35,553 bases of DNA from an uncultured Rhodospirillales bacterium (GTDB lineage: Bacteria > Pseudomonadota > Alphaproteobacteria > Acetobacterales > Acetobacteraceae), in the NCBI GenBank assembly GCA_903928895.1, contig CAIYSR010000054.1, forward strand, positions 1 through 35,553. Reading direction: 5' to 3'. Positions 368-18,420 of the stretch are shown in pieces; within the stretch, counting starts at the first letter, position 1; the number at the start of each line of letters is the position of its first letter. Under the pieces are notes generated by a model that was not told the origin of the DNA, did not search any database, and saw nothing but the letters and a program-made list of their open reading frames with translations. The position numbers and the translations under genes are program-made.

Positions 368-1129
368 CTATGCACTCTTAATCACCCGGGTCTCAATAAG
401 CGCGCACAAATGCGCCCGTAGGCCAAACGGCAAATCGCCGCCGGTTATCAAGACGCCAGCCTCCATGTTCTTCTCAAGGGCATGCCCGGTCAGGTTTGCG
501 CTGGTCAGGAATGCAGTTCTTCCGTCGGCAACCGCCAACTTTGCGTGAACCCGACCGTTGGTGAATGGTGCTGGCCGGTCCGTCCAGGCGTACAACTCCG
601 CCGAAGGTACACAGGTCCTCATTGTGGCGATGGGATCGACCGACAAGCTGCCACCGTGGTTTGAGGAGGTTTCCAGCAGAATTTGAATCTTGATGCCGCG
701 CCCTGCTGCGGCGTTCAGTGCGTCGACGACCGACGAGACATCATATGCGACGAAACTGACGAGGAAGAGGTCGCTCTTCGCATGATCGATGAGATCCAGA
801 AGCACCTGCTCGGTGCGACGGGTGGCGACGGCGGGAGTCGTAGGGCCCGTCCAGACGAGTTCGACACTAGTCTCCCGCTGTGCCTGTTGGCGGGCGTAGG
901 CCGCGCCAACTAAGATACCAGCCAATACCTCGCCTGATATTTTCGTCTTCTTCCAAGCGGCGATCATGCGATCAAGCGCAGTGCGAGCAGCGGGCGTGGT
1001 GACAAGCTGGTGAAGGCCCACATCCTTCTCGGCCGACGGTGAGCCTCGGATACGATCAGCAAGTGCGTCAATCCTCAGCGGAGACAGAAGGGCCACGAGG
1101 TCCGTAGCGGCGATCAGCATCGCAGTCAT
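368..1129 (-). CDS. drmC: DISARM protein DrmC, phospholipase D-like
   Basis: This 253-aa protein carries one phospholipase D/HKD-type motif near residues 195-202 (H195, K197, D202), followed by a typical TSANLTGHALEKN stretch. A helical N-terminal region of about 100 residues precedes the domain. Small single-HKD proteins at the end of drmA-drmB operons are DrmC. Its presence is characteristic of DISARM, but published work finds it dispensable in at least one system. PLD folds cut phosphodiester bonds and usually need two HKD motifs, so a dimer is expected. The ATG overlaps the drmB stop by one base (TGATG), implying translational coupling. It is the last gene of the operon, with a nested hairpin just after the stop. 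Confidence 0.9.
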   Translation of the reverse strand: MTAMLIAATDLVALLSPLRIDALADRIRGSPSAEKDVGLHQLVTTPAARTALDRMIAAWKKTKISGEVLAGILVGAAYARQQAQRETSVELVWTGPTTPAVATRRTEQVLLDLIDHAKSDLFLVSFVAYDVSSVVDALNAAAGRGIKIQILLETSSNHGGSLSVDPIATMRTCVPSAELYAWTDRPAPFTNGRVHAKLAVADGRTAFLTSANLTGHALEKNMEAGVLITGGDLPFGLRAHLCALIETRVIKSA

Positions 1130-2970
1130 CAGACGGTCTCGAAAAAGGCTGCATCGGGGTTTTCTAGCGTGGGCACGACCAGCGAGCGATCCAGATGGCG
1201 ATTGCCGCGCTCACATGAGGTCTCCGACACAAAAGAACATGCGTGACACGCTGCGCCGTGGAGCGACTGATCTTTGCTCGGGTCATGTTCCGCACAGAGC
1301 GGATCGGATGCACAAATGTGGGCTCGGTCTAGTGCCTGGCGCAGAAGTCGGCCGAGATTTTCGGGGTTCCCAAGCTCGACCAGCCCCCCCAGCGTTCCAT
1401 CGGAGTCTGCAGCGGCCGTGTAGATAAGAAATCCGGCTTGATCCATGCCGTCGTCGACATCTGCGTATATTCGCTCACGAACGCTCGCAGCATTGTATCC
1501 GCACTCCAGGGCCAGTTCGCGGATGAGCATATGCGCGAGGGTATGGAGCATGACGTAGCGGACACCCGGATAACCTTCGTTCGGATCAAGGTTTCGTTTG
1601 TGGCGCCATCCTCGGTGCCCCTGTCGGAGCCTTGCATCAATCGCCTTTACGGGGGCCTTTTCCGCCCAAATCTTCAAAGCATCAGAATTGAAACTGATGA
1701 AAATGCCTTCTCCGTGGACTTGGGTGGCGGGCACCCAGTTCGGCGCGGCACGTCCGAGTGGTGCCCGTGGAGCTGCATCGTCTCCAGCGCCCTCATCAGG
1801 GGACTCGACTCTCGTGAATCCGAGGAGAGCGTTCACCTCTCGAAGACGCTCTAGCAAAAGCACGCGCGTGATCGCTGGATCGAATCCGGAAGGGACGCCT
1901 ACTTTCTTGCTCATGAAGTGCGGGTAGTCGGTGGGAGGGTTGGCAGCTGTGAGCACATCCCATTCGGGACCCTTCAAATCGCTTTGCTCGACCTTGGGTC
2001 CGCCATTGCGGTGGGCTTCTACCGCCGTCCAGATCTGCTCGTCGGTGAATTGGTCTATGCCGGGCAGCTGAGCCGTCTTCTTCAGTGTTTTTACGACGAA
2101 TGACACTTCGGAGACAGACGAAACGTCCTCGAAGAACGTCCAGCCGTCCGCGATCAGTTGAGCCAAGGGACTTCCCGTCTGCGGGATGGCGAGGACCGAT
2201 AGCGTTACGGGAAACCAGCCATTCGTCGCTCCGAGAAGAATGGCGCGAGGGTCTTCGCTGCAATCATCTTCGAATCTGTCGATATGCGGATGCCGTCCGC
2301 GGCACCCCGGTAGATTGTCTCGACCAGCCTGTCCGAACGCCTGCGCCATGTTCTTCGATTTGCTACAGCCGTCACACTTGACCCAAAGGTTCTCGGTCTG
2401 AAGCGATGCGCCGCTCTCAAAAAAACGTAGTGTTGCGCGGCATGGATCCGGCCCGCCATGGACAAACCAGTGCCAGGCGAAGTCATCCAAATGGCCGGCA
2501 CGGCAGGCCATGAGGAAGCGAGCTGGAACGGCATCGGCATCCCTGGCCCGTCCAGTGTTGCTTGATCCCCGGCAGCCTTCATGCACAAATCGTGTCGACT
2601 CTGGACGGTACCGGTTCTCCTTCAGCTTGAACAATCCGGCATCATAGGGTGACAGCAAGCCGCATTTCACGCAGCGGAGCCACCGCGGAAAAGGCTTCAC
2701 GGGGACGCCTATCAGTGCCGCGGCAGAAAAGGGATCAACGATATCCCTCTCGCCTATCGGGGGCATGCGCAATGAATCGACCTGTGGTCCAAGGACACTT
2801 CGAACATTGGCCAGTAGCCGCCCCTCTTGAATCGGCTGGCATCTGTCCTTCTCCCAGCGATCGATGCCCATCGTGACCACCGATATGTTGGGGAGGTCGA
2901 TCAAAGCTCCCGGACCATAGGTCCATAGAAGCTGGCTCGGTCGGATCTCGCCTACAGGTGTCCTGCTCAT
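1129..2970 (-). CDS. drmB: DISARM protein DrmB (DUF1998)
   Basis: I chose the ATG at 2970 (613 aa) over an upstream in-frame start at 3009. A strong GAGGAGG ribosome site lies about 7 nt before it, and the ATG overlaps the drmA stop as ATGA. The N-terminus has the DrmB-like signature RPSQLLWTYGPGALIDLP. A Cys pair CVKC lies near residues 100-103, with further Cys/His pairs around 120-240. A DUF1998 block includes HTLAHML near 476-482, and a Cys-rich cluster covers about 554-587, consistent with zinc binding. In characterised systems DrmB forms the core complex with the DrmA helicase, and the gene order here fits that partnership. Family assignment is firm; the biochemical role in this operon is inferred. 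Confidence 0.93.
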   Translation of the reverse strand: MSRTPVGEIRPSQLLWTYGPGALIDLPNISVVTMGIDRWEKDRCQPIQEGRLLANVRSVLGPQVDSLRMPPIGERDIVDPFSAAALIGVPVKPFPRWLRCVKCGLLSPYDAGLFKLKENRYRPESTRFVHEGCRGSSNTGRARDADAVPARFLMACRAGHLDDFAWHWFVHGGPDPCRATLRFFESGASLQTENLWVKCDGCSKSKNMAQAFGQAGRDNLPGCRGRHPHIDRFEDDCSEDPRAILLGATNGWFPVTLSVLAIPQTGSPLAQLIADGWTFFEDVSSVSEVSFVVKTLKKTAQLPGIDQFTDEQIWTAVEAHRNGGPKVEQSDLKGPEWDVLTAANPPTDYPHFMSKKVGVPSGFDPAITRVLLLERLREVNALLGFTRVESPDEGAGDDAAPRAPLGRAAPNWVPATQVHGEGIFISFNSDALKIWAEKAPVKAIDARLRQGHRGWRHKRNLDPNEGYPGVRYVMLHTLAHMLIRELALECGYNAASVRERIYADVDDGMDQAGFLIYTAAADSDGTLGGLVELGNPENLGRLLRQALDRAHICASDPLCAEHDPSKDQSLHGAACHACSFVSETSCERGNRHLDRSLVVPTLENPDAAFFETV

Positions 2971-5900
2971 TGCCGATCCTCCTCGGCTCTGGTCACTTTC
3001 GGTCGCCAAGTCGGATCAGTGGTCGAGCGGTCGTCCTCCATCACAAGTCTTACGCCTGGCTCGACCTCGCGCATGGACATCGGGACTGTCCAGTCGGTCC
3101 AGGGCTTGATGCCGGGTGCTGATAGGAGCGGATAGGCGGTGGGGCCGGCGCCATACTTTTGGTAGACGAGCGTTCGCCCGCCAACGCCTGCTTCACTGGC
3201 CCATTCGTCGGCACGGCTCTTCATTTCGGCTTCGGCTAGCGCCTTCTTTCCCGAATCCTCGGTCACTTCCCAGGTTCGGGCGGTAATCGCGGCTATCGTT
3301 TCAAGCATCTCGTGGAGGCTTGGGCTATTCATGGCGCCGGCCCCGTCGTTCGCGGCGAATGGATCGTAGGTGTGGCGCATAATCGAAAGCATCGCGCCCG
3401 TAAGTCCTCGGTCCAACGCACGCGGCGAGAATGGCGTGACAGATTGGGCTTCGACGTGCTGGTAGAAAGTCGCGTGGTAGTGTTCGAACGTCTCGTAGTG
3501 CGACAGGTCGCGCGGCCGCGCCCAAGTCAACACCGTCGCCACGAGTCCTGGCGGCGTGCGGCCCACGCGGCTTGTCGCTTGGATATATTCGGCAGTTCCC
3601 TTGGGCTGGCCGTTGACGACCATCACCCCAAGGCGGTTCACGTCCACACCGACTGACAGCATGTTGGTCGCAAGGACGGCATCGATTGGTCTTGCGTCTC
3701 CGGGTTTCCTGTTGGTCACCCATTTGGCTTGCGCAGAGTCATAGGTCCCGTCGAACGGGACCTCGAGCTGATCTAGGTATCGAGGAATGTCCTGACTGGA
3801 GACGCGCGACGTCAATTCGCTGACTTCTTCAACGCGTCGCTGGCAGAGCCCCGGCCGGTCCACCAAGCTCATATTGACGCGGAAAGAACGCGTCTGGACG
3901 TCGTCTTCCGCCAACCGCTTCATGCCACCGAGCTCTCGGAGCGAGTTGAAATAGCCGACGAGCGTCATATAGGGGTCCGCTATCGGGCCGAACCGATCGA
4001 ACAGGGCCTGGGCGGCAGTGAGGAATGCCGTGTATGTCCTGATCAGAACTGCTGGACGCGAGCTACCAGGCGCACAGATGCCCATGTAGCGCCGCCCGGG
4101 TTTCTCGCTGATCGGACGTTGAACGGAAAAAAAGTTGTCTTCGACGTCAAGTCCGGTCGGAGGAAACACAGAGATCCTCCGCATGAACACGTTTCGCACT
4201 TGATCATCGGCACGCCGCACGGTTGCTGTTGATGCGACGACCTTCGGTCGAACTTTAGTGCCGCCGAGGGTCCAGCTGCTCAGCTCATCGACGGCCGTCT
4301 CATACAGGCCCACCATCGTACCCAGTGGACCGCTGATGAGGTGGAACTCATCCTGAATGATCAGGTCTGGCGGCCTGATGGCGCGGACTGGCTTCACACT
4401 GGCGGCTGGATATGAGCCTCGCGCTCGATGCCCGGTGCCACAGTCATGGCTCGGCCAAAGCAGGCCATGGCGTCCGCACTCCTGCTCGACCCGGCCGAAA
4501 AGATTCCGCACTTCCGGGCGCCACGCCATCATGGCGAACTTGTCCACGGTCGCGATCATCATAGTCGGAGGACGGTGATAAATCTCTTCGTCGACGACCT
4601 TCACCGGCAGGCCGGGGTGAGGCTGGCCACTCGATTTTGCTTTCGAGAAGTCGCATCCACCGAGCTTGTCTCCGCAGTGGATCAGGGTTCGGCCGGCGAT
4701 CCTGTCTACCTCGATGTCGCGTCCGCCGGAGATTTCAGAGCCGCACCACGGGCAGCTAGTCAGCTGTGCGGGCGAAGCTATCCCCGCCTTATTCCGATCA
4801 TTGTTGCGAATGGCGTCGACGGCTTGATGAGACGCTTCGGTCGTGCCCGGCGTGACACGGTTGCCGACCCATAAGCCTAGCGAGAACGGCTCCTTGCCCC
4901 AGGTCTTGTCATCCGCGCGGCGGATGACTTCCATCGCGCAGAGCAAGGTAGTCGCCCGCTGGAACTGCTGCAGGGTCAGAAGGCGCAGCGTGTAGCGCAT
5001 GATGACGGCGAGGCCGCGCGTCGCGTCCAAACCACCCAGATCATTCTTCAATCGTCGCATCGCCATGGCGAAGGCGGCCACGCCGAGATAGGCCTCGGTC
5101 TTGCCGCCACCGGTCGGAAACCAGAGGAGATCGGCGAATGCCTCAACGGGCTTCGTTCGGTCCGGATGGGCGGGATCAGCAAGCGATGGGATGGACAGAA
5201 GCAGGAATGCGAGCTGGAACGGGCGCCACGATCTGTTCTTCGGGACGTCCAGTGTAGCGACGTCGACTTCCTCGTTTCGCCTGCGCTTGAGCGAGTATAT
5301 GCTTCGCACGCGCTGCATCGCCATGGACCGGTTGGCGAAGCGGAAAGCTTCCAACGCGTTCACATCGGTAAAAAGAGTATCCTGACCTTCCCGAAGGCGG
5401 CGCAGGATCTCCTCACAGCGCGCAATTACGTCTTTGCCAGGATCGTCGAAACCGGTGATCTCGGTTCCCAACCGCTTCTTTTGCTCGTCGATCCAGACAG
5501 CGTAATCGTCGATCAGGCAGGATAGCGCCTCGCGGAGACCGTCAGGGCCCATTTCGGCCAGACGTGTCATGTCGAGCCACCCTTCATCGAGCATGCGCCG
5601 CATGGCGGGACGGTCTCTCGAGTCGAGGCCTGGGGTTTCCGTTACGGCGACTTCGTATCGGGGCACGATCTCGGTTCGGACGAGGTGCGCTTTCGCCGAG
5701 TCATCGCGTGTCGTTTCGGCATGGACTGACACCCCGTGTCCGACGGCGTATTCCAGACGGCTGCGATATATGAGCGCAAGCCGGTCGCGTTCCGGGTCGT
5801 CGACCACTACCTCATTGGACGGGCGCCGCCGGAAAACCGCTTTGTCAGTATCGCCCTCGGCGGCTTGGACGCTGATCTTTGGCTGGAACAGCCATGCGCG

Positions 5901-6944
5901 GTCCTTATTGTCGTCTGGCTCCAGTTGGCCATTCACCAGGAACAGAGTGACGAGCCGTTCGCCCTTGTTGTTCGTCCGCACCGTGCCCTGCAAGCGGACG
6001 TCCGGCTGGTCTCGATCGGGGGTGGACGGCTTGATCTGGCCATCGACGAGGGGCAGCGTGACCACACCGCCGCAGGGGATCCGTTGCCAGACTCGGACCT
6101 TTACTTCTTCCTCGTGACCCGTCGCGCGGTTCTTACGGGTCTTGACGACCTTATGCTCGCCATTGGGAACACGTTCATAGCGCCCCCAGCGTGCGTCGAC
6201 GGTCAATTTCGCGACGTCGGGTGCCACGCAGAAGGTGAGGCCCATGCTGGATGGGACAAGGGACTGGTTGTTCGTGGTGTCGATCTCGTCAAGGGCGTCA
6301 TCCTCGGTTTCCACTCGGCCCGATGCGCTCGCGAATTCGGCGCCGGGCTCGTGGAGCGGCGCTGCTCGCTCATCCTCCAGGTCGCCGCTTTCCTCGGCCG
6401 CCGAGGCAGGCTCAACCCGAGCTTCCTGGTCGTCGTCCGGCCGCCGCGGGGCCAGCTTCCCGACAAGATAGCGGTCGCGAACGCTCATGTCCTTTATCTG
6501 CTCGTGCGGTCCACCGGCGGGGCCGAGAAGATCGTCGCGGATAGCTAATTCGAGCAGATCGCGCACATAGGCGACATTCTGGATGAGTGGAACGTCAGCG
6601 ACTGCGGTACCGCCTAGCGCGATGATTTTTGCAAGGTCCTCGGGACGGAGTCGTCCGATGGGGCCGGAAGGTAGCCTCAGACCGATGTCGATGACGGAGG
6701 TTTGCGGACAGACTGCGTGCATTCGGTCGAAATAGATCGTCGTTGTCGCAAGATCGGAACGTATACGTAGAATCCGACCGACGCACTTCAGGGCGCCGTT
6801 GGCTTCAGCCGCGACGACCCAATGCCCTTCGTCCAAAGCAGCGAAGGTCGAACGCGCTCCGTCTAGTCGAATGACGTGAGGGCCAAGCCATGTCGGTTCC
6901 TTGGTGAGCCATCCTTGTCCGCTTGGATCAATGATCGAGGTCAT
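2967..6944 (-). CDS. drmA: DISARM helicase DrmA
   Basis: This 1325-aa superfamily 2 helicase has Walker A FPTGGGKTE near 609-617, a DEFH box near 865-868, motif III-like STATV near 904-908, and motif VI QATSRVGR near 1123-1130. A putative zinc site (CPWC near 731-734, then CGDKLGGC) sits between Walker A and the DEFH box. About 165-222 is an acidic, low-complexity linker. Length and layout match DrmA, the DISARM DNA translocase that works with DrmB and discriminates incoming DNA. The ATG follows a GGGGGCG ribosome site. It starts 20 nt after the 331-aa gene and overlaps drmB by 4 nt. Confidence 0.94.
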   Translation of the reverse strand: MTSIIDPSGQGWLTKEPTWLGPHVIRLDGARSTFAALDEGHWVVAAEANGALKCVGRILRIRSDLATTTIYFDRMHAVCPQTSVIDIGLRLPSGPIGRLRPEDLAKIIALGGTAVADVPLIQNVAYVRDLLELAIRDDLLGPAGGPHEQIKDMSVRDRYLVGKLAPRRPDDDQEARVEPASAAEESGDLEDERAAPLHEPGAEFASASGRVETEDDALDEIDTTNNQSLVPSSMGLTFCVAPDVAKLTVDARWGRYERVPNGEHKVVKTRKNRATGHEEEVKVRVWQRIPCGGVVTLPLVDGQIKPSTPDRDQPDVRLQGTVRTNNKGERLVTLFLVNGQLEPDDNKDRAWLFQPKISVQAAEGDTDKAVFRRRPSNEVVVDDPERDRLALIYRSRLEYAVGHGVSVHAETTRDDSAKAHLVRTEIVPRYEVAVTETPGLDSRDRPAMRRMLDEGWLDMTRLAEMGPDGLREALSCLIDDYAVWIDEQKKRLGTEITGFDDPGKDVIARCEEILRRLREGQDTLFTDVNALEAFRFANRSMAMQRVRSIYSLKRRRNEEVDVATLDVPKNRSWRPFQLAFLLLSIPSLADPAHPDRTKPVEAFADLLWFPTGGGKTEAYLGVAAFAMAMRRLKNDLGGLDATRGLAVIMRYTLRLLTLQQFQRATTLLCAMEVIRRADDKTWGKEPFSLGLWVGNRVTPGTTEASHQAVDAIRNNDRNKAGIASPAQLTSCPWCGSEISGGRDIEVDRIAGRTLIHCGDKLGGCDFSKAKSSGQPHPGLPVKVVDEEIYHRPPTMMIATVDKFAMMAWRPEVRNLFGRVEQECGRHGLLWPSHDCGTGHRARGSYPAASVKPVRAIRPPDLIIQDEFHLISGPLGTMVGLYETAVDELSSWTLGGTKVRPKVVASTATVRRADDQVRNVFMRRISVFPPTGLDVEDNFFSVQRPISEKPGRRYMGICAPGSSRPAVLIRTYTAFLTAAQALFDRFGPIADPYMTLVGYFNSLRELGGMKRLAEDDVQTRSFRVNMSLVDRPGLCQRRVEEVSELTSRVSSQDIPRYLDQLEVPFDGTYDSAQAKWVTNRKPGDARPIDAVLATNMLSVGVDVNRLGVMVVNGQPKGTAEYIQATSRVGRTPPGLVATVLTWARPRDLSHYETFEHYHATFYQHVEAQSVTPFSPRALDRGLTGAMLSIMRHTYDPFAANDGAGAMNSPSLHEMLETIAAITARTWEVTEDSGKKALAEAEMKSRADEWASEAGVGGRTLVYQKYGAGPTAYPLLSAPGIKPWTDWTVPMSMREVEPGVRLVMEDDRSTTDPTWRPKVTRAEEDRQ

Positions 6945-6964
6945 GTGTCGCCCCCATTGAGCTT

Positions 6965-7960
6965 CTATAGCTCGACGCGAGAAAAGTGCGGGTAGATTCG
7001 ATAGAACTTCCTGAAAACCAAGAATGGATCCTCGCCCATGTCGGACTTAGGCAAATCGAAGGACAGTTTCGCCCGAGCGTCTTCGCTCGACTCCATCGTC
7101 AACCGCTCCAGGGTGGAAAGGGCTGGCAGGTCGAGACGATGGGGGGAGTCTGGTATCGAGTGGAATTCCCACCCCTGCAGAAGATCATCGATTGATCTCT
7201 CGTTGGGGGCGCATATCACGAGTGCCGCGGTCACCATCGCCTGACCGTCTTTGTAGTGGGTCGCCAGCGCCCACACCATCCGACGATCACGAAAGTTGAG
7301 CGCTTCCTTTTCGACCGCCAGCTTGAGGACGCGGAGCAAGCTCAAACCGTAGTTCTTGTGTGTCATGCAGTCGGCGGGCAGCCCGCTCGGGAAGAGGTGC
7401 CCGACCCGCTCCTTGAAGCGAGCGAGTCGCCACTCCTGTGTCGTCGGCTTTTGCTTACGGTCAGCCGACGCCGAGTCGTCGACTTCAACAGATATTTCGT
7501 TGGTGGTCGGCTTTCCGAGAGACTCCGGATTTGCGTTGAGCGTCACGCGCAGCACGCTTCCGAGTGGAACCGTTCCGATGGTTCGTGCGAAGCGTTCGAT
7601 CTGCGTGGTGATGCCTTTTGGCTCCGTGTAATCAAACCAGATGATCGCAGGCGCTTCGAATTCTTGTCCGTCCAGATAATCTTCGAGCGTCGCGTGGACG
7701 CATTCGATCGATGCGATCGGACGATTGAAGAGTTGCCGCTTGTGAACCTCTAGTTCGGTTTCCACACATGCCATCCGACTGACGCCGAGCCGGGCGTGCA
7801 CCAATCTGAAATCCTCCAGAAAGGGGCCGCCGAGTCCGATGTACTGGTATTTTTCCAGCGACAGACTGGGAGCCAGCCGCATCAGCAGCGACAGGAACAG
7901 TTCACGGTCAACGGCCTTATTGGGCCTCAACCGATACGGGAGTGACGATCCGGTGCTCAT
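6965..7960 (-). CDS. Putative Rossmann-fold methyltransferase-like protein, partner of the GHKL ATPase
   Basis: I do not recognise a named family for this 331-aa protein. The first half reads like a class I methyltransferase-type Rossmann fold: a glycine-rich loop YIGLGGPF near residues 38-45, an acidic strand end VETE, a further strand-helix unit ECVHATLEDYL, WFDYTEP after the fourth strand, and VLRVTLNAN after it. The glycine loop is not a standard GxGxG, so SAM binding is unproven. The second half is helical with a conserved-looking THKNYGLSLLRVLK block. There is no signal peptide or membrane segment. It starts 3 nt after the GHKL ATPase stop and ends 20 nt before drmA, so both genes sit inside the DISARM backbone. 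It could instead be a non-enzymatic Rossmann partner of the ATPase. Confidence 0.75.
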   Translation of the reverse strand: MSTGSSLPYRLRPNKAVDRELFLSLLMRLAPSLSLEKYQYIGLGGPFLEDFRLVHARLGVSRMACVETELEVHKRQLFNRPIASIECVHATLEDYLDGQEFEAPAIIWFDYTEPKGITTQIERFARTIGTVPLGSVLRVTLNANPESLGKPTTNEISVEVDDSASADRKQKPTTQEWRLARFKERVGHLFPSGLPADCMTHKNYGLSLLRVLKLAVEKEALNFRDRRMVWALATHYKDGQAMVTAALVICAPNERSIDDLLQGWEFHSIPDSPHRLDLPALSTLERLTMESSEDARAKLSFDLPKSDMGEDPFLVFRKFYRIYPHFSRVEL

Positions 7961-7963
7961 GTA

Positions 7964-9376: not shown

Positions 9377-12300
9377 TTGCTGGTCCTCTGTGTGCGGGAC
9401 TTCTTCACAGGCTCGGTGGCATTGGTCTTGGACGCCTTCGGGTCGGCCCCGGTCGGGTCGATAAGAGCGAAGGTGCCTTGCGCGCCCGGAGACTTCGCCC
9501 CCCGCTTCGCCGGTCTTGCCGAAGTCGCTGCAATGGCCAAGTCAGTTCCGCCTTCGACCCTTTGCAGATTCAGTCCGATAAGGCGATGAAGCAGCTCGCG
9601 TCGTGTGGCATCCGAGAGAGTGAACCGAAGGTTCTTCCCTTTCGGGAGGCGCTCGGCGGCGAAGAACCCCATACTCGTGGAAACGTCCGTCCAGCCGTAC
9701 GCAGCAACGACCGTCGCGTTAAGCTGCTCATGAAGGTGCCGAAGTCTGAGAATGTCTGAAGCCGTTTCGTTTTCTGCATGAAACAGGTTGTATATCTCGG
9801 TGAGACCAACTCCACGGCCTTTGATGAGCTGCTGGCGGTATGCGTAGTAGTCGGCTCCAACGCGTTGCAAATCGGCGGTTAGAATCGGAAACGGGAACGT
9901 CGAGAGGACCGTCGTCGCGGTATATCGGATCAAGTCCAGGCTCGTGGAGCAGAACTGCCATACCCAGAGTTCATGAACCGACGACTGTAAGCATGCGTAC
10001 AGCCCATGGCTTGGACGCACAACCACGACGATAGGATGCGCAAACACTGAACGCGCCGAGACGAACGTAGGGAAGATGTACTTGGCGGTGAACGGAAGAA
10101 CAATGACTTGGTCAAGGTGCCGAGCGGCGTTCTCAAGACCAGGGCGCGCTTCGGCGTAGCGCCACCAACGTTCCTTGTTCGCTTTCCGCTTGACGAGATC
10201 CCGTTCGGGTTTGACGAGCGCGCGAACGATGTCGAGGCACTCGGGGTAGTTTTGCCGGCACTCCTCCAACGACCGCATTGAGAAGTTGATGGCGAAATTC
10301 CTCGAGGTCTGCTCCACTTTGTTGTTGATGTCATCACCGCGAATCAGCGGGAACAGGACGTCGGCGTTATTTGCCCTGAGGCCACGCAGGCGTGATGCTT
10401 CTTCCTCAGAGATAACGAAGCCTTGACCCATCAAATAGTGACCAGAAAAAGCCAGCCCTTCGTTCTCGACGAGTTCACGCGGCGACTCGATCTTGTGCTC
10501 TGTTTCCAGTTGCAAGAATGAGCTGATTCGGCCCTCGACAACGGCATCATCAACGACGACTTTCCCCGTCCACAAGAAGTTTGTCAGATGGACGTGGGCG
10601 ATTTTGACGCCAGCCGCCCCCGGCCAAGTCCGCGACGGAACGCACGAGTAGACGGTAAGCCCTTCACCGAGCAGCCGTTCGAGGCCGTTTCTTCGAGACT
10701 CCCCTTGAGAGATGATGTCGCTCAATACCAAGCCGATGAATCCAGGCCTCGCGACAATCATAGCAGCTCGAAGGAGGAAGTAGACGCAGAGGTCGGTAGT
10801 GCCTGCTGGACCGAGAAGCCACCGTTTCAGATACGAAAGTAATGCATCCGAGTGCCTGAAACTGATCCGCCGTCCTCCAAGCATAGGTGGGTTGCCAATA
10901 ATGGCGTCGAAACCAGAATTGCCCTGGAAGACGTGAGGGAATGCCAACGGCCAGTGGAGCGGGCGGCGTGCTTCTCCTCTGGTGGAATCTTTTGAGAGGT
11001 CGGCCAGCGCGCGCCTCGACAATGCGGCGAGCGCCTGAGGGTCTTTCCGCAACACTCGGTCGGCATCGGCTGCGAGTACAGCGATGCGTGTCTCAACGTC
11101 GCCACTGTCCGCCGCGAACACCACGCCGATGAAGGCGTCGGCGAGCAACTCAGCAGCTTCGAGCTTCTTGCGAGTCTCGGCGTCCAGCGTAGCCATCGCC
11201 TCGACATCGTGGATGTCGCGAATGGGAATCTTGTGCAGCTTCCGGCGTAGCTCGACGGCATCGGCCACCGCGCGCTCAATGGCCTTGCCGAACAGACGGC
11301 CCTGCTTCGTGGTTGCCGGGTCAAGTGACAGCTCAGTGAGCTGATCAAGGCGGCTGATGCCGAGAAGGCTATCGCCGCTCCGAAGGTTGTGGTCGAGGAA
11401 ACCGAAGGGCCGCCCTTTGGCGAGCGTGGTCAGCCACAGTGACAACTTAGCTAGTTCGACCGCGAGCGGGTTTTTGTCGACGCCGTAGAGGCAGCGCTCG
11501 GCGATCAGCCGGCGCGCCAATATCGCGCGCTCCTCGGTATCGCGCGACAGCGACTCGTACCCGACCGGGTCATCCATAGAAAGCATGCGGCCTTCGGCAT
11601 CGATCCGGCCGCCACCCGCTTCCACGTCGGACCAAGCCTCGACGAGCCGATCGGCGAGCCAACGGCAGGCCTGTACGAGGAACGCACCTGATCCCATTGC
11701 GGGATCGCAGACCTTGAGGTCGAGGAGTACATCGGCGCTCTTGAGCCTCCAATCTTCGCGCGCCGCACCTTCGGCTGGGCCGTGATAGACGATCGGGGTC
11801 AGCGTCTCCTCGACGATCTTCTCGGTCAGGCTCTTGGGCGTGTAGTGCGTCCCGCTCTCGCGCCGATCAGCGCCTAGAACTACGACGAAAGCACCCGCGT
11901 GATGGACCAACGGGTATCCCCACGGGTCCGTCCGCAGTAGTGCGGCAAAGGGTAGGATGCGGTCTCGCAGGGCCACGTCGCCACGGCAGACGGTGAGCAG
12001 GCGCGCCGCCACGTGCTCGTCCGGCTCCCGGTCGATGGCGTTGCGAATGGCGGGCTCGGAACGCTCGCTCCGCTCCTTCAGGAGATCGACGATCCTGGCG
12101 GCGCTATCGAGGCGCACGGTTTCGATCTCGCCCAGCGTGACGCGCGCATTCTTCGCCTTGGCCGATCCTTCGAGCTCAAGCGTCACATCATCGACGCGCT
12201 GCACCGTGCGTTCGAGGAGACCCTCGTAGACGTGGCCGATCTGCTCTACGTCGAGGGCGCGGTAGGAGAGCGTGCGTCCTTCGAAGGTCTGGATCGCTTC

Positions 12301-13479
12301 CAGTAGGAGCAAGACCGTTCGGTCGTCGATGGGCAGCGGCTCCGCAGGATCGCTCCGCCAACCGGTCCCCTTCTTTCGTCCTTCGAGGAAAGGGTAGCGG
12401 TCTGGATCGAAGAGAGACCCCCCCATCGCCGGGAGCCGAAGCGTCGGATGGTCGATGCCGCCAAAGACGCCACGGAACAGAGCGAGCAGCCGAGACCATG
12501 ACGACCGCCGACGCTCCAAGATCTCCTCCGAATCCGCGCGAAGCTGCATCCGCAGGCTAGATATCGCATAGAAGGCTTCGTAGCGGGGATCGCCGAGCAG
12601 CAGCAGTCCACGTTCCTCGGCTGCGAGCAGGAAGACGAGCCGCATCATGACCGTCAAGCCGGCCTCGTAGAGTTCTCGTGGGTCGACGTCGCGCAGAAGG
12701 TCGCGGTTGCGGTCCTGGTCGGCGCGATCCAGGGCCTGGACGAGCACTTCGATGGCGCGCCGGACCTGCTCTCCGAGCGCTTCAGTCACGTCGCCCTGGT
12801 GCTTCAGAGACCGCTCGTAGAGCGCGGGCAACGTGCCCTCGTCGGGTCCGAAGAAACGACGAACACCCAGCAGGCTGACGAAGGCGCGCAGCGTTTCCAG
12901 TTCCTGGCCCCAAAGGCGCGCATACCAGCTCGCGAAGCCTGCTACGGCGCCGACGGGCGCGTGGACGAGCATCCAGCGCTCCCCATTGGTGACGATACCA
13001 GTGGGGCATCCCGTCGCTCGGAGCAGCGCGACCATCCGGTCGGCCGGGGTGATCGCGAGGCCATCGAAACGGCGCGTCGCGTCCAGATCGGTATCGGGCT
13101 CGTAGACGTGGATGAGCAGGAGCGGTTCGTCGGAGTGCGTCGGATTCACGACGGCTAGGTCGGGCGCGACCGTGACCCCGTGTTCGGGCATTGAGACAGT
13201 CAACTGCTCAGGCAGTGTCGCGCCCCTGCGCAGCACCGCCTCATCCATTTCCAAGGCAGTGACCAGCACATCGTCGATCCAGGCCGCGTGCAGCGCGGGA
13301 AGGTCGAGGTCGTCCATGTCGACGGCATCGCGCCATTCCTCATAGGTCCTACGAAGCCGCTGAGGCCGCCCGGAAGGCAGAGCTTCGAGGCCTTGCGGGA
13401 AGACATCCCGCAGCACGGGCACCGCCAGAAACGGCCCAGAGACTTCGACGAGGTTCAGCCACTCGTGATCGTTGCTCAT
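9373..13479 (-). CDS. drmMI: DISARM methylase DrmMI (N6-adenine-type DNA methyltransferase)
   Basis: This 1368-aa protein has a long N-terminal region of about 540 residues resembling the N-termini of type IIG/Eco57I-like enzymes. A HYTPKSLTEKIV stretch then leads into the methylase. Motif I is DPAMGSGAF near 592-600, and GVDKNPLAVELAKLSLWL follows. Motif IV is NPPM at 863-866, where this family normally has NPPY or NPPF. The C-terminus is a specificity-like region ending in a basic tail. In class 1 DISARM, DrmMI marks host DNA so that the helicases ignore it. It overlaps drmD and the GHKL gene by 4 nt each. Family assignment is firm; the methionine in motif IV leaves activity uncertain. Confidence 0.93.
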   Translation of the reverse strand: MSNDHEWLNLVEVSGPFLAVPVLRDVFPQGLEALPSGRPQRLRRTYEEWRDAVDMDDLDLPALHAAWIDDVLVTALEMDEAVLRRGATLPEQLTVSMPEHGVTVAPDLAVVNPTHSDEPLLLIHVYEPDTDLDATRRFDGLAITPADRMVALLRATGCPTGIVTNGERWMLVHAPVGAVAGFASWYARLWGQELETLRAFVSLLGVRRFFGPDEGTLPALYERSLKHQGDVTEALGEQVRRAIEVLVQALDRADQDRNRDLLRDVDPRELYEAGLTVMMRLVFLLAAEERGLLLLGDPRYEAFYAISSLRMQLRADSEEILERRRSSWSRLLALFRGVFGGIDHPTLRLPAMGGSLFDPDRYPFLEGRKKGTGWRSDPAEPLPIDDRTVLLLLEAIQTFEGRTLSYRALDVEQIGHVYEGLLERTVQRVDDVTLELEGSAKAKNARVTLGEIETVRLDSAARIVDLLKERSERSEPAIRNAIDREPDEHVAARLLTVCRGDVALRDRILPFAALLRTDPWGYPLVHHAGAFVVVLGADRRESGTHYTPKSLTEKIVEETLTPIVYHGPAEGAAREDWRLKSADVLLDLKVCDPAMGSGAFLVQACRWLADRLVEAWSDVEAGGGRIDAEGRMLSMDDPVGYESLSRDTEERAILARRLIAERCLYGVDKNPLAVELAKLSLWLTTLAKGRPFGFLDHNLRSGDSLLGISRLDQLTELSLDPATTKQGRLFGKAIERAVADAVELRRKLHKIPIRDIHDVEAMATLDAETRKKLEAAELLADAFIGVVFAADSGDVETRIAVLAADADRVLRKDPQALAALSRRALADLSKDSTRGEARRPLHWPLAFPHVFQGNSGFDAIIGNPPMLGGRRISFRHSDALLSYLKRWLLGPAGTTDLCVYFLLRAAMIVARPGFIGLVLSDIISQGESRRNGLERLLGEGLTVYSCVPSRTWPGAAGVKIAHVHLTNFLWTGKVVVDDAVVEGRISSFLQLETEHKIESPRELVENEGLAFSGHYLMGQGFVISEEEASRLRGLRANNADVLFPLIRGDDINNKVEQTSRNFAINFSMRSLEECRQNYPECLDIVRALVKPERDLVKRKANKERWWRYAEARPGLENAARHLDQVIVLPFTAKYIFPTFVSARSVFAHPIVVVVRPSHGLYACLQSSVHELWVWQFCSTSLDLIRYTATTVLSTFPFPILTADLQRVGADYYAYRQQLIKGRGVGLTEIYNLFHAENETASDILRLRHLHEQLNATVVAAYGWTDVSTSMGFFAAERLPKGKNLRFTLSDATRRELLHRLIGLNLQRVEGGTDLAIAATSARPAKRGAKSPGAQGTFALIDPTGADPKASKTNATEPVKKSRTQRTSK

Positions 13480-16400
13480 CCGCGCTTCTCCGTCGCGATG
13501 GAGTTCGGAACCAGCAGCACCACGGCCACGGGGAAGGTATGCTCGACGGCGTTGGAATGCCGTTCCTCGATCGCCCGTACTTCCTGCTCGCGTTCCTTTG
13601 GAATACGTGCGCGGCGAGCTTCCAAAGCGGCGTGATCTCGCTTCAGCTGAGTGCGTTCGTCATCAGAGAAGAGGTCGAGTTGTTGCGGCGCGCGTTCGGC
13701 GACAAGCTCAGTCTTCAGCGCTCGCTCGAGATCATCGAGCACCTGTCGGATATCTTCTATTTCCTTGAGTTTTTGGGCATCGATCTTGTTTACGAGGAAG
13801 CGCAAACGCTCCTTTGATCGCGCCTCGACAGCGGCGAGAATGGCGTCACGTTGCTTGTCGAAGCGCGTCCGTAGGGCATCGAAAGTAGAACTCGACAGGG
13901 CCGCGGGTTGAGAGTCTTCAAGCCAACGGCGAACCTCCGTAACCCTGTCTTCCCGTCGGAAGTTGGCATCGCGCAGATAGCCTCCCGCTTCCGTGAGTTC
14001 CTCGTGTAGGCGGTTATGGTTCCCGCCAGTCACGACCAGCCGCGACATCACGACCACGGCTGGTCCCTCGATCCGCCCATCCGGTAACGAGCGAACGGTG
14101 ACGCGATTCAGTTTCTTAACGTCGTCGCGCGCCCAAATCTCGGCACGCAGGAGACGGAGGCTCATTTGGACCAGGCGGTGGTTCAGGTGGACGAGAACGA
14201 CGTCATCACGTCCCTTGGCAACGTCGTGGTCGAAGGTGATGGGGCGGATCTTTTGGGTGTACGGATGTTCGAGCCCCTCTAGGCATCGCGACCACGACCC
14301 CGACAAGGGTGGCATACGAAAGACGGTCCCGTCCGGAGTCCCGACAAGCGAGGCCGGCTCCAGATCAGGCTTATCTGCGATCCGCAACGCCGTTCGGACA
14401 GCCCGCTCGATGTGGTCCGGAACCAAACTCTGCTCGCGCCGGGTCTCGTTCAGCCGCTCGTGGAGTTTGGCGACCCGGTCGCGAAGATCGCGCTCGACCT
14501 TCACGAAACGGCGAGACCGTTCCATCCTGGCCTCGGCTTGCCGCGTGTCGAGATCGCGGCGGCGGCCTTCGAGCAGGTCGGACAGTTGAGGCGCGATGAC
14601 CGGATTGACACTGCCCATGTCGGCACGCATCGCATCCAGTTTGCGGAGAGCGCGCAGGATATCGTCACCGTGGCCACCTTCGGCATCCACCGGGTGCCAA
14701 ATGACGACCTCGCTGGCGCGTTGACCGTGCCGATCGATACGGCCGTTCCGCTGCTCCATCACGTTCGGGTTGTAAGGAATTTCGAGGTGGATCATCAGGT
14801 GACAATGGTTCTGTAGATCGATGCCCTCTGACGCAGCGTCGGTGGCCAATAGGATCCTTACCGGGGATTCGGAGGGGTCAGCCTGGAACGCGGCTTTCAC
14901 GGCCTCCCTTTCCTTCGGATCCATGCCGCCGTAGATCAGAGCTAGGCGGTCTGCCCCGAAACCGTGCGCCGATAGGATCTCCTGCATCCATTGCTGAGTG
15001 GCTCGATATTCGGTGAACAGGATCACCCGTTCGTTCGTCCACCGGTCGCCGTCTTTCAGGTGTTTGGCCAGCCAATCCAGTAGGGCGTTGGCCTTGGCAT
15101 CCGTTCGACGAGCCGCCTGCTGTGCCCATGAGCGCAAATGGTCGAGCATACGTCGTTCGTCGTCGTTTGGTGGTCGGGAGTGTTTACCAGCTTCCTCGAT
15201 CGCCTCAGCCTCGGCGGCGTCCCGCTGAGCGTCGTCTGAATAGTCCTCTTCTGTCTTTGCTATAGCCTTGCGAAGGATACGGTCATCGAACTTTTTCTGG
15301 CTGCGCTCAGTCGTCGCCCGGCCCTCGATCGTCGCGATATGCCGTTCCAGCGTTGCTGCGAAAGCCGCGGGAGACGAAGCGAGGCGCTTGCGCAGTAATT
15401 GGTGCACGAAGTGATCGACGGCACGCCGACCTTCGGATCCGCTTTCGCGGCTCTTTATGTATGCGTCGAGCCGCCGCCGCACATCTCTTTCGCCGCTGGC
15501 GTAATCAATGCGCAGCGCTTCCAGACGCCTCTCAGGGAAGATACGCTTGCCATTCGCATCGACGAGATCACTCTTGAGCCGGCGGACCATGACCCGAGCA
15601 AGCTGCGCGTCACTAGGAAGCACGTTTCTTGCGAACCGCTGATCATCAAGGAGCTCGAGCAGTGCGGTGAAGGACTCTGTGTAGCCGTCGTGCGGCGTGG
15701 CGGTGAGAAACAGTTTGTGCTGGAAGTGTGGTGCAGCCAGGCGGACCAAGCGTGTCCTGAGGCTTTCGACAGCGTAGCGGCCAACAGTCGGCGCGACGTT
15801 GTGGGCCTCGTCAATGATCAGCAGGTCGAACTTTCGGGGATGGCTCACGTGGGGGGGCAAAGCATCCCGCAGGAGACGCAGGCCTTCGCCTTGCTTTGCC
15901 CAGTCCATCGAAGTGATTAGTCGGGGAAAAGACGTCCATGGATTCGCATGCAGTCCCCGCTCCCGGCGCAGACGCTTGACATAATCCGTGTCGACGATCC
16001 GGAACTCGAGCCCGAATTTCTCCTGCATCTCGACACGCCACTTCTCCTGCAAAGAGGCAGGGCATAGGACGAGGACGGTACGGGCACGGTGACGCAGGAG
16101 CATCTCCTGAACGACGAGCCCGGCCTCAATGGTCTTCCCGAGCCCGACGTCATCGGCGATCAGCAGATTGGTGCGCGCCATGTCGATTGCCCGCACGAGC
16201 GGGTCCAGCTGGAAGTCTTCGATACTGACTCCACTGCGGAATGGCGCCTGGAGATAGCCCCGGTCAGCGTTCGTTGCAGCCCCCCAAGCGACGGCATCAA
16301 GGAAGGCTTGAAGTGTCGAGGGGTCATCCAGTCCGGTGATGCGCGGGAGTCCCGCCCTCTCGATCACATGAGCTCCGGGCTCTAGCTCCCAGAGCACTTC

Positions 16401-16589
16401 GATCTCTTCACCCAGCGCGTCCTCGTCGATTGAAGCAAGCCGAACGAGGTGCCGCTTCGGTAGTCCTGGTGCAACCGAACCGCCGTCGATCTCGGAGACT
16501 ATCCACTGGCGACGGCGAGCCTCGACCAGCTGGCCCGGCTCTGGAGCAGTGGCGTGAGCGACCTTGGCCACCATTTCATCGGCGGTCAT
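13476..16589 (-). CDS. drmD: DISARM SNF2-family helicase DrmD
   Basis: From the ATG at 16589 the protein is 1037 aa. That ATG overlaps the vsr stop as ATGA, like other junctions here; an ATG two codons earlier (16595) is equally possible. An SNF2-type ATPase core starts near residue 145 with ADDVGLGKTIEAG (Walker A), then IIDEAHN near 260, FLTATPHDGY, and a second RecA lobe with LLATDAASEGIDLQ and NGRIDRHGQ. A helical, charged C-terminal region of roughly 350 residues follows. SNF2 helicases next to a large adenine methylase and drmA-drmB-drmC define class 1 DISARM. The stop overlaps the drmMI start by 4 nt. Confidence 0.92.
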   Translation of the reverse strand: MTADEMVAKVAHATAPEPGQLVEARRRQWIVSEIDGGSVAPGLPKRHLVRLASIDEDALGEEIEVLWELEPGAHVIERAGLPRITGLDDPSTLQAFLDAVAWGAATNADRGYLQAPFRSGVSIEDFQLDPLVRAIDMARTNLLIADDVGLGKTIEAGLVVQEMLLRHRARTVLVLCPASLQEKWRVEMQEKFGLEFRIVDTDYVKRLRRERGLHANPWTSFPRLITSMDWAKQGEGLRLLRDALPPHVSHPRKFDLLIIDEAHNVAPTVGRYAVESLRTRLVRLAAPHFQHKLFLTATPHDGYTESFTALLELLDDQRFARNVLPSDAQLARVMVRRLKSDLVDANGKRIFPERRLEALRIDYASGERDVRRRLDAYIKSRESGSEGRRAVDHFVHQLLRKRLASSPAAFAATLERHIATIEGRATTERSQKKFDDRILRKAIAKTEEDYSDDAQRDAAEAEAIEEAGKHSRPPNDDERRMLDHLRSWAQQAARRTDAKANALLDWLAKHLKDGDRWTNERVILFTEYRATQQWMQEILSAHGFGADRLALIYGGMDPKEREAVKAAFQADPSESPVRILLATDAASEGIDLQNHCHLMIHLEIPYNPNVMEQRNGRIDRHGQRASEVVIWHPVDAEGGHGDDILRALRKLDAMRADMGSVNPVIAPQLSDLLEGRRRDLDTRQAEARMERSRRFVKVERDLRDRVAKLHERLNETRREQSLVPDHIERAVRTALRIADKPDLEPASLVGTPDGTVFRMPPLSGSWSRCLEGLEHPYTQKIRPITFDHDVAKGRDDVVLVHLNHRLVQMSLRLLRAEIWARDDVKKLNRVTVRSLPDGRIEGPAVVVMSRLVVTGGNHNRLHEELTEAGGYLRDANFRREDRVTEVRRWLEDSQPAALSSSTFDALRTRFDKQRDAILAAVEARSKERLRFLVNKIDAQKLKEIEDIRQVLDDLERALKTELVAERAPQQLDLFSDDERTQLKRDHAALEARRARIPKEREQEVRAIEERHSNAVEHTFPVAVVLLVPNSIATEKRG

Positions 16590-17026
16590 CGACATAGATG
16601 GACCCCATTCTGCTTCCGCGAGTCGACAAGCTCGGCGATGCGGTCCGCGGCTTTCCGAGCATCTTCGTGTTCCCAGATCCGGACCGTCGCCCAACCAAGA
16701 GCGTTCAGCCGCTGATCGGTATCGGCATCTCTGGATCGATTGGTTTCGATCTTCTCCCGCCAAAAATCGGCATTACTCTTCGGCCAGGAAGCGTGCTTTG
16801 GGCATCCGTGCCAGAAACATCCGTCGACGAACACGGCTAGTCTCACGCTGGGGAAGACGATATCGGCGACGCGTCTGGGCTTCGTCAGGAGCGGAACGTG
16901 GAGGCGATAGCGCAGCCCCTTGGCATGCAGAATTTTGCGGAGGTCGATCTCCGCTTGCGTGCCCTTCTGTCGCACGCAGGCCATCCGACGACTGGCGTCA
17001 TGCGACGAGGGACTTACTTGCGTCAT
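16586..17026 (-). CDS. vsr: Very short patch repair endonuclease Vsr
   Basis: This 146-aa protein matches the normal Vsr length. It shows the family core: VADIVFPSVRLAVFVDGCFW, then HGCPKH, then a WREKI segment and GWATVRIWEHE near the end. The aspartate of VADIVFP fits the catalytic position, and the Cys/His residues fit the structural zinc site. Vsr nicks beside T:G mismatches produced by deamination of 5-methylcytosine, in the sequence context made by its partner methylase. It overlaps the 3' end of the upstream cytosine methyltransferase by 29 bp and the drmD start by 4 bp. It probably limits the mutational cost of that methylase. Confidence 0.93.
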   Translation of the reverse strand: MTQVSPSSHDASRRMACVRQKGTQAEIDLRKILHAKGLRYRLHVPLLTKPRRVADIVFPSVRLAVFVDGCFWHGCPKHASWPKSNADFWREKIETNRSRDADTDQRLNALGWATVRIWEHEDARKAADRIAELVDSRKQNGVHLCR

Positions 17027-18134
17027 CCACGATGGCTCCCTTCTTCCTTTTCATCGTCTCGGCTTCAATCCCAAGATGGGCTGCGATGCTCTGACCGATC
17101 ACCTCGCCGAGCGTGACGGGAACCGCGTTCCCGATCATGCGGCCCAACGCCTTGAAGTGAACGGGGGCTCCGTCCGGGAGGAAAGAATAAGACTTAGGAA
17201 AGCCTTGAAGGATTGCCCCTTCTCGAAGGGAAATGGCGCGATCCTGTTCGGGATGTCCGAACCGACCGTTCCCAAAGCCATAGAACTGGGTCGTCAAAGT
17301 CGGAGCGGGTTCATCCCATACCATCCGGCCATATACGCCCGGATAGGTATGCCCCGTCTCTCGCCGATGACAGTCAGCGACGAGATGCTTCGGCCAATCC
17401 CGCCATGTACCTCCGGGGCGAGAGGCACGAATGCGTTCCCGGTTCAAATCGGATAGCTTCGACGCAGCATGAAGCGGGTCCATAAGCTGGGCCTCACCCT
17501 GCATGATCGGTGCGAGCCCACCGATCGCAGCGCGGACAGTCATCGGGAAACTAAGTGTCGGGGCGATCAACTCTATGTGGCCGAGGCGGGACGCGAGTAG
17601 CACCAACCGTCGCCGATTTTGTGGCAGCCCATAGAGGGAGCAATCAACCACCTGCTGGTTGATGTGGTACCCCAGTTTCTGAAGCGTCTGGACAAAGTCG
17701 TCGAACACTGCGTGCTTGGCGACGGACGGAACATTCTCCATCGTGACCAAGTCCGGTCGTGTGCCTTTTATCAGCCGTCCGAATTGATAGAGCAGGCCCC
17801 AACGCGGGCTCCCAACGACATCATACCGCTGGGCGTAGGTCGAGAATGGTTGGCATGGTGCGCACCCGGCAAGCACCCGGAATTCAGCATCACCGAACAT
17901 CTCGCTGAGACGTTTTGGGGCTAGGCGCCCCACGTCTCCATTGATGAAGCGCGCTGCATTGTTAGCTTCGAAGGGATGACGGCAGGCAGCGTCAACATCT
18001 ATACCTGCGACAACCTTGATCCCTTCTGAAATCAGCCCGTGAGTGAGGCCTCCCGCCCCGCAGAATAGGTCGACGCACGCTATATTTTCCGAAATTGCTC
18101 GAGAGGATGTCTTTATTTCTGTATTGCCCAGCAT
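16998..18134 (-). CDS. C5-cytosine DNA methyltransferase (DrmMII/Dcm-like)
   Basis: This 378-aa protein has the ordered motifs of 5mC methyltransferases: DLFCGAGG near residues 22-29 (SAM site), GCAPCQPFS near 90-98 with the catalytic PCQ cysteine, MENVPS (motif VI), QNRRR (motif VIII), a target-recognition region, and IGNAVP near the C-terminus. Length is typical. Class 2 DISARM uses a 5mC methylase (DrmMII, CCWGG in the characterised Bacillus system). Here one is joined to a class 1 backbone together with vsr. The start has a GGAG ribosome site 7 nt upstream. The first 20 codons and upstream DNA are AT-richer than the rest of the operon. The target site cannot be read from the sequence. Confidence 0.94.
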   Translation of the reverse strand: MLGNTEIKTSSRAISENIACVDLFCGAGGLTHGLISEGIKVVAGIDVDAACRHPFEANNAARFINGDVGRLAPKRLSEMFGDAEFRVLAGCAPCQPFSTYAQRYDVVGSPRWGLLYQFGRLIKGTRPDLVTMENVPSVAKHAVFDDFVQTLQKLGYHINQQVVDCSLYGLPQNRRRLVLLASRLGHIELIAPTLSFPMTVRAAIGGLAPIMQGEAQLMDPLHAASKLSDLNRERIRASRPGGTWRDWPKHLVADCHRRETGHTYPGVYGRMVWDEPAPTLTTQFYGFGNGRFGHPEQDRAISLREGAILQGFPKSYSFLPDGAPVHFKALGRMIGNAVPVTLGEVIGQSIAAHLGIEAETMKRKKGAIVDDASKSLVA

Positions 18135-18311
18135 TCACTCGCTCCACATTTCAGAGCGACTTCGTCTATTATTTGCAAAGTTGGGCCTATAAGGTGTCCC
18201 ATGCACTTCGTTGGCTGCCATGACGGCAACTAGAGCATACCCGGTTCGAGTGGCAACGATGACACCAATTGTCTCGTTCCTAGTCTGGAATGGATCAATT
18301 GTGTCTGCCAT
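18135..18311 (-). CDS. Possible 58-aa leader ORF of the defence operon
   Basis: This is a short ORF from ATG 18311 to a TGA that directly abuts the methyltransferase ATG (TGAATG). AAGGG and GGAGGG purine runs lie 6-20 nt before the start. The peptide has a hydrophobic centre (ALVAVMAAN) and a basic C-terminus. I recognise no family, and codon use is AT-rich like the start of the next gene. The frame stays open further upstream, to 18440. The interval 18135-18420 must also hold the defence operon promoter unless it is transcribed from the 206-aa gene. I see no clean -35/-10 pair, so this could be plain leader DNA. Confidence 0.3.
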   Translation of the reverse strand: MADTIDPFQTRNETIGVIVATRTGYALVAVMAANEVHGTPYRPNFANNRRSRSEMWSE

Positions 18312-18420
18312 ATCGAACCCTTGCCTGACCCTCCAGAATCTGCGTCCCAGTGTTAGCCAATTTGGGCAGCAGCGCAATGCATCACTCGCCTCAATGCCTT
18401 CGGCGCGGCCTGGCTGGTCC

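Follow-up and report, generated by a model that had tools for sequence, protein, structure and literature searches.

A class 1 DISARM operon with a GHKL ATPase and a Methyltransf_35 protein at an exchangeable drmMI-drmA junction

Introduction

On the minus strand of contig CAIYSR010000054.1 (GCA_903928895.1), a stretch of 35,553 nucleotides (nt) from an uncultured Rhodospirillales bacterium of the Acetobacteraceae that is referred to here in its full length as the window, genes of the antiviral system DISARM (defence island system associated with restriction-modification) are found together with a 5-methylcytosine (5mC) DNA methylase gene (M5C), a vsr gene and two genes placed between drmMI and drmA. 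The latter encode a GHKL ATPase (GHKL) and a Methyltransf_35 protein (MT35), and are called the cassette below. The locus raises the question whether these nine genes form one machine, or whether a DISARM operon has taken up a second system. Here, we find a class 1 DISARM operon in which the drmMI-drmA junction is a plug-in slot with exchangeable defence content, occupied in the window by GHKL-MT35.

Results

A single class 1 operon

The nine co-directional genes occupy positions 368-18134 of the window, in the order M5C, vsr, drmD, drmMI, GHKL, MT35, drmA, drmB, drmC (lengths in amino acids, aa; cut-offs are those of the profiles):

16998-18134, minus strand: M5C, 5mC DNA methylase, DrmMII-like (378 aa; PF00145, 178 bits, cut-off 22)
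16586-17026, minus strand: vsr, mismatch nicking endonuclease Vsr (146 aa; TIGR00632, 114.7 bits, cut-off 97.85)
13476-16763, minus strand: drmD, SNF2-like helicase (NF038317, 1356 bits, cut-off 610)
9373-13479, minus strand: drmMI, MmeI-like adenine methylase by homology (PADLOC PDLC02643, 1708 bits)
7964-9376, minus strand: GHKL, MutL/MORC-like ATPase (470 aa; HATPase_c_3 PF13589, 34.1 bits, cut-off 25)
6965-7960, minus strand: MT35, Methyltransf_35 protein, second gene of the cassette (331 aa; PF20553, 267.5 bits, cut-off 27)
2967-6944, minus strand: drmA, YprA-family helicase of the class 1 form (NF038325, 1463.5 bits, cut-off 950; PDB 7s9v_A, 1769 bits)
1129-3009, minus strand: drmB, DUF1998/MZB protein (NF038324, 747 bits, cut-off 240; PDB 7s9v_B, 1023 bits)
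368-1129, minus strand: drmC, phospholipase-D-like nuclease with an H.K motif (NF038319, 259 bits, cut-off 133)

Overlaps are present at the junctions M5C-vsr (29 nt), drmD-drmMI (4 nt), drmMI-GHKL (4 nt), drmA-drmB (43 nt) and drmB-drmC (1 nt), and gaps at GHKL-MT35 (3 nt) and MT35-drmA (20 nt, the widest in the operon). If the longest drmD start is taken vsr and drmD overlap by 178 nt, but the true start is probably further downstream, since the annotated drmD of Microvirga overlaps vsr by just 20 nt. The nine genes form a single operon, and their coordinates, junctions and family matches agree with a first-pass annotation of this DNA, which had listed nine tightly spaced genes in this order on one strand; the "Rossmann-like protein" of that annotation is found at its place and can now be identified as a member of Methyltransf_35. 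M5C contains the motifs GAGG, PCQP, ENV, NRRR and GNAV, and Vsr is the usual companion of a 5mC methylase, repairing deaminated 5mC. A scan for promoters and terminators gave signal at chance level. An open reading frame (ORF) of 101 aa at 18135-18440 matched nothing in PADLOC or NCBIfam and probably does not represent a gene.

Because drmD and drmMI are present, the core of the operon (drmD, drmMI, drmA, drmB and drmC) is class 1 DISARM by its gene content. Class 2 DISARM shares a 5mC methylase (DrmMII) and drmA-drmB-drmC with the window but is characterized by drmE, which was not found among the PADLOC families listed for the nine proteins and for the ORF of 101 aa, on a contig that ends 367 bases beyond drmC. 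Inside the operon no unassigned gene is left that could be drmE, and the annotated Microvirga operon is likewise without it. The match of M5C to class 2 DrmMII (PADLOC PDLC02651, 296 bits) is not diagnostic, because the next family, the generic MTase_II, scores 270 bits. Furthermore, 5mC and adenine methylases are both reported for the DISARM operon of Serratia sp. SCBI in the available part of its description (PMC9142583), so that DISARM with two methylases is already known. On these grounds we reject a class 1/class 2 hybrid, as which the locus had previously been read. The Serratia operon shares with the window the drmD-drmMI-drmA-drmB-drmC core and the two methylases (DrmA 1769 bits, DrmB 1023 bits), and its DrmA (PDB 7s9v/7s9w) matches those of the window and two relatives with 1769-2095 bits. 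GHKL-MT35 between drmMI and drmA is a feature of the window in this comparison, which covers DrmA, DrmB and the reported methylases of Serratia.

Related loci in several phyla

A single GHKL-profile scan of 84,980 species genomes yielded 408 relatives, the best 80 of which were kept. At 22 of these 80, DISARM genes are located beside GHKL-MT35, and a tblastn search of plasmids added pR24_2 of Microvirga terrae, which has the identical nine-gene order (5 of the 54 plasmid records with a DrmA match were examined). The extra genes therefore recur with DISARM elsewhere, as the single-system view of the first-pass annotation requires. These 23 related loci include Alpha-, Beta- and Gammaproteobacteria, Myxococcota and Planctomycetota, judging from the record titles. 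All nine genes are present with order and strand unchanged in 13 of the 23, which exceeds chance. Locus L030 has eight of the nine genes, its stored DNA stopping before drmC; five loci (L017, L022, L027, L031 and L060) have M5C upstream and no Vsr match, L017 also being without a drmD match; in L020 and L023 vsr and M5C are located downstream; and L015 and L024 are truncated by contig ends. Besides its own drmA, only distant drmA genes (36-41% identity) were found among 60 relatives of the window genome.

A small helix-turn-helix gene of the Microvirga locus (L007, 5012-5233), a possible controller, has matches in 13 further loci. It lies directly upstream of M5C in 13 of these 14 loci, L007 included; the match in L011 is weak, and in L114 no M5C is in view. 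The Microvirga gene has no match in the window at E 1e-3, and with the 101-aa ORF matching no PADLOC or NCBIfam family, a controller gene upstream of the window M5C was rejected.

Alternative contents of the drmMI-drmA junction

DrmD searches in three overlapping draws of 398, 369 and 372 genomes returned 11 class 1 loci besides the window. Three of them (L123, L129 and L133) fall into the DrmA clade of the window (29 rows, support 100). Of these, L123 and L133 read M5C-vsr-drmD-drmMI-drmA-drmB-drmC, up to 91% identical and without a cassette, and the junction is also empty in L138, an IMG/VR contig. All three are close kin (86-91% identical in drmA, drmB and drmD) and cassette-free. At the junction of L129 a 1060-aa protein is encoded that matches the PADLOC family DRT UG5-nitrilase with 948 bits; this reverse transcriptase gene lies between drmA and drmMI (4140-7322, minus strand), and drmMI is there broken by an IS66 transposase. 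The remaining eight loci, three of which are short, have no Vsr match, and an M5C match, a distant one, occurs only in L126.

A DrmA search of 201 genomes in the order of the L129 genome gave five further loci (L183-L187, not placed on a tree) with drmA 56-63% identical to that of the window. In L183 the junction holds a GHKL protein that PADLOC scores as a type II restriction enzyme (REase_II, 402 bits), along with one in which Schlafen AlbA and Fic-like domains are found; L184, a near-copy, has ORFs of the same sizes, the PADLOC identity having been read in L183 alone. The junction contains PD-T7-1 (586 bits) in L185, is empty in L186, where the drmMI and drmA frames overlap, and is unreadable in L187. 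The same search in 196 genomes of the order of L123 found only the L123 genome. A distant DNA search of E. coli genomes with a Pseudomonas drmA gave no match.

Other genes join the composite operons as well: an AspBHI-type methyl-directed endonuclease in L019 (the corresponding position in L023 and L027 is taken by ORFs of similar size), PDC-M65A/B in L030, and a PIN protein in L028. An Mrr-type nuclease lies between drmD and drmMI in L016 and likewise in the cassette-free L186, with similar ORFs in L018 and L021. On a Deinococcus plasmid (L134, 21593-25302), vsr, M5C and the gene of a GHKL REase_II protein of 664 aa come after class 1 DISARM, in what seems to be a separate association between DISARM and a GHKL system.

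Two histories within one operon

Pairwise protein distances were compared over the window and the 23 loci, with proteins under 55% of the window length dropped gene by gene. Spearman correlations are 0.84-0.96 within drmA-D, and against drmA-D they amount to 0.74-0.87 for drmMI, 0.75-0.81 for M5C (drmA 0.75, drmB 0.80, drmD 0.81) and 0.45-0.78 for vsr. GHKL and MT35 correlate with each other at 0.87, and with any other gene at 0.11-0.45 (GHKL-drmA 0.38, MT35-drmD 0.14), values that for GHKL are lowered by the choice of loci on GHKL similarity, which narrows its range; the choice put no direct selection on MT35. The distances thus form two blocks, one of the DISARM genes with M5C and vsr, the other of GHKL and MT35. 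M5C and vsr had been proposed to belong to the operon; both indeed vary along with the DISARM genes and keep the same order in 13 of the 23 loci.

Exchange can be followed in single loci. The cassette of L031 is of the myxobacterial type (GHKL 85% and MT35 90% identical to L028), and its drmA is 85% identical to L022 and 61% to L028. In approximately unbiased (AU) tests, forcing the L031 GHKL with the Burkholderiales rows was rejected (p 7e-56), and L032 forced with L012-L015 gave p 0.006, both p values being optimistic because the groups were named after the trees had been seen. These tests support cassette exchange between operons.

The trees were quick, and several rows are on long branches. 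In the GHKL tree, built from loci of at least 50% identity and nine picked distant ones (L006 and the duplicate L141 left out), 24 of the 41 rows are DISARM-linked and the label changes 3 times, against a shuffled mean of 13.2, which may reflect one capture and two departures. Cassette presence takes 4 changes on the DrmA tree (proteins >900 aa only). In the M5C tree (proteins of at least 180 aa, nine picked distant rows), composite and cassette-free loci share one clade with seven of the eight solo loci (33 rows, support 99), L033 being outside; a single methylase lineage therefore serves cassette-free DISARM, solo cassettes and the composites alike.

GHKL-MT35 outside DISARM

MT35 is adjacent to GHKL in 49 of 51 distant GHKL loci. 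In the 37 of these with enough DNA, GHKL has M5C within 3.5 kb in 33 cases and Vsr in 20; beyond 5 kb (to about 10 kb) each was found in 1 of 21. Scanning viral contigs for MT35 yielded 41 loci, with GHKL adjacent and M5C near in 40 each, and no DISARM match over 100 bits on these 41 contigs. In L009, M5C-GHKL-MT35 at 63-71% identity adjoins phage-like structural genes, which we read from their ORFs as Mu-like. Of 5426 complete E. coli genomes, 224 were matched by a distant GHKL-MT35-M5C query, 172 of them over at least 80% of its length. In the one genome examined, E. coli O157:H7 PA20 (L182, 6968-10467), the three genes lie among prophage genes and are annotated as ATP-binding protein, O-methyltransferase and DNA cytosine methyltransferase, with no defence function given.

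Features of GHKL, MT35 and DrmMI

The GHKL motifs DLLDNCID, DNCGG and GVGMKRA are present, and invariant columns were seen over 61 sequences. The AlphaFold model of MT35 (predicted local distance difference test score 91.5) has a class I S-adenosylmethionine (SAM) methyltransferase fold, and the fold matches listed include Trm1, METTL16, PsiM and rRNA/tRNA methyltransferases. Thirteen residues are invariant over 81 MT35 sequences, among them R12, K15, D50, W108 and D110, and their conservation suggests an active site. PADLOC has no family for either protein. In sequence searches of the PDB the GHKL profile and DrmMI had no match, and the MT35 profile had one at E = 1.

Adenine-methylase activity is defined by motif IV, NPP[FYW]. 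This form is found in 35 of 36 relatives of DrmMI, the 36th being a 373-aa fragment; in the window DrmMI the motif reads NPPM (aa 863-866; 10865-10910, minus strand), a matter of one ATG codon. The altered motif casts doubt on the activity of this DrmMI, not on its homology, and could reflect loss of methylase activity, natural variation or an error in sequencing. It is thus doubtful for the window copy that self is marked by two modifications, as had been suggested.

Compared with six close kin per 100 residues, DrmMI is 74-97% identical up to residue 700, 37-57% up to 900 and 17-35% beyond; against three more distant kin identity drops to 22-44% beyond about residue 800. A fall from about residue 700, in the C-terminal half of the protein (gene at 9373-11380 in the window), is seen in all nine pairs compared, whereas M5C residues 51-350 show no comparable drop. 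The C-terminal half of DrmMI looks like an exchanged specificity module, going by these identities.

Neighbourhood of the operon

Phage or integrative-element genes are found to the right of the operon, at 18421-35515. They include the following feature:

19622-21070: serine recombinase

Further genes in this region encode a DUF2924 protein, an S24 repressor, an AAA_24 protein, a primase/DUF3987 protein, a helicase and two ParB-domain DNA methylases. The gene content suggests that the window DISARM may ride on a mobile element.

Discussion

A proposed second arm in the slot

The explanation that we prefer, and to which we give an even chance, is that this class 1 DISARM uses a 5mC self-mark and holds GHKL-MT35 in its slot as a second restriction arm that refers to the same 5mC. 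M5C, together with DrmMI if the latter is active, would mark host DNA, the 5mC mark presumably being DISARM's own here. DrmAB would load onto unmarked DNA having free 5' ends, in line with what is reported of Serratia DrmAB, which, in the accessible part of that study, binds single-stranded and 5'-overhang DNA and has an ATPase that is strongly stimulated by unmethylated DNA and lower with 5mC DNA (PMC9142583). GHKL-MT35 would be an independent arm reading this mark: a GHKL dimer, acting as an ATP-driven clamp like MutL, may, together with SAM-binding MT35, engage DNA that lacks or half-lacks the mark, and may trigger its removal by an activity of its own or through a nuclease acting as partner, which could be Vsr, DrmC or an enzyme of the host. 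That the pair restricts DNA and reads 5mC, as well as how it acts, we infer on indirect support: M5C is its frequent partner, the L183 junction carries a GHKL REase_II, and the similar Deinococcus GHKL enzyme stands beside M5C, Vsr and DISARM. In a bolder form, M5C-GHKL-MT35 would be a widespread three-gene anti-DNA system, its effector pair new and without a classical endonuclease, which exists independently in prophages and chromosomes and was captured by DISARM, with the junction as a general docking slot whose occupants share the 5mC mark; this we put forward tentatively, at somewhat less than an even chance.

Several observations weigh against this explanation, in addition to the selection of loci and the optimistic AU values given above. 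No nuclease family was matched by GHKL or MT35 (Pfam, PADLOC and NCBIfam, E 0.01), and the predicted methyltransferase fold of MT35 would suit an enzyme of modification equally well or better. In 2 of the 51 distant loci MT35 is not adjacent, L055 and L057 having no MT35 match, and just 1 of the 41 viral-contig copies has a Vsr match. M5C of the composites tracks DISARM (0.75-0.81) and not GHKL (0.40), and the GHKLs of L026 and L033 sit in the DISARM clade yet occur outside DISARM, although the L033 contig ends soon after MT35. Finally, GHKL-MT35 was found in none of the seven readable junctions from the drmD and drmA genome searches, L183 and L184 being near-copies; the pair therefore shares the slot with other occupants, among which it is in the minority.

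Alternatives

M5C and GHKL-MT35 could instead constitute a modification or epigenetic unit, in which MT35 would add a second modification or act on RNA and GHKL would remodel DNA, serving protection or, in phages, anti-restriction. Such a unit would accommodate the class I SAM methyltransferase fold predicted for MT35, with its matches to Trm1, METTL16, PsiM and rRNA/tRNA methyltransferases, and the presence of MT35 on 41 viral contigs. We nevertheless regard it as unlikely, if a serious contender, as the same junction carries GHKL REase_II (L183) and other defence genes, and the Deinococcus GHKL enzyme of L134 is found next to M5C, Vsr and DISARM.

Alternatively, the nine genes could be one machine, an integrated DISARM subtype with GHKL and MT35 as true subunits acting on DrmAB, for example as an ATP-driven matchmaker and a third modification enzyme. 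A nearly constant gene order kept in distant phyla, short overlaps and DISARM-linked GHKLs that form almost one clade would all be expected of it. It is contradicted by the close kin L123, L133 and L138 that are without GHKL-MT35, by a cassette history that disagrees with that of the core, and by GHKL-MT35 without DISARM in many loci and viral contigs, so that we consider it rather improbable. With the pair missing in close kin and exchanged, the "distinct DISARM subtype" of the first-pass annotation is too strong a term for GHKL-MT35.

Ordinary defence-island clustering of unrelated co-oriented neighbours is very improbable even though defence genes cluster and a serine recombinase and phage-like genes on the right mark the neighbourhood as mobile, and chance clustering as sole cause is rejected by the identical nine-gene order in 13 of 23 loci over several phyla.

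Relation to known systems

The closest described systems are compared here with the window operon on the portions of the sources available to us. MORC/paraMORC ATPases of restriction-modification operons (Iyer et al., 2008; PMC2292703) share with the window a GHKL ATPase adjoining a cytosine methylase and Vsr, but those operons mostly contain SFII helicases and nucleases of the restriction endonuclease fold, and no partner of the Methyltransf_35 type was found in that portion. The ATP-binding motifs expected of MORC/paraMORC proteins are present in the window GHKL (PF13589 above cut-off). In bacteriophage exclusion (BREX) operons with BrxU between brxC and pglX, an independent second defence gene is likewise nested in a methylase-based operon (PMC8565348), which is, by analogy, a precedent for nesting; BrxU, however, attacks modified DNA, whereas the cassette nested here is a GHKL and methyltransferase-fold pair, at a junction with several alternative systems. 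Class 1 DISARM and ARMADA, the latter described with BRIGADE and other YprA-helicase systems, have in common a YprA-like helicase, a DrmD-like helicase and a PglX-like methylase. ARMADA likewise has Vsr-type nuclease domains, but these are fused to the helicase, whereas the window Vsr is a separate gene, and drmA and drmB of the window are of the DISARM type (PMC12458937). The same 2025 preprint mentions many uncharacterised DISARM-like classes, and the term GHKL is absent from the portion available (PMC12458937).

Significance

No description of the nested GHKL-MT35 pair, of the composite operon or of the DISARM slot was found in searches of the openly licensed PubMed Central literature, and GHKL-MT35 seems not to have been studied previously as a defence system. 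Our results suggest that DISARM operons act as a chassis, in which a conserved core with its own 5mC mark is combined with a slot that trades whole defence cassettes. Whether a common self-mark is used by nested systems can thereby be tested directly. In E. coli, where 172 of 5426 complete genomes carry GHKL-MT35 and a 5mC methylase, this unit of defence or modification is within reach of tests in laboratory strains.

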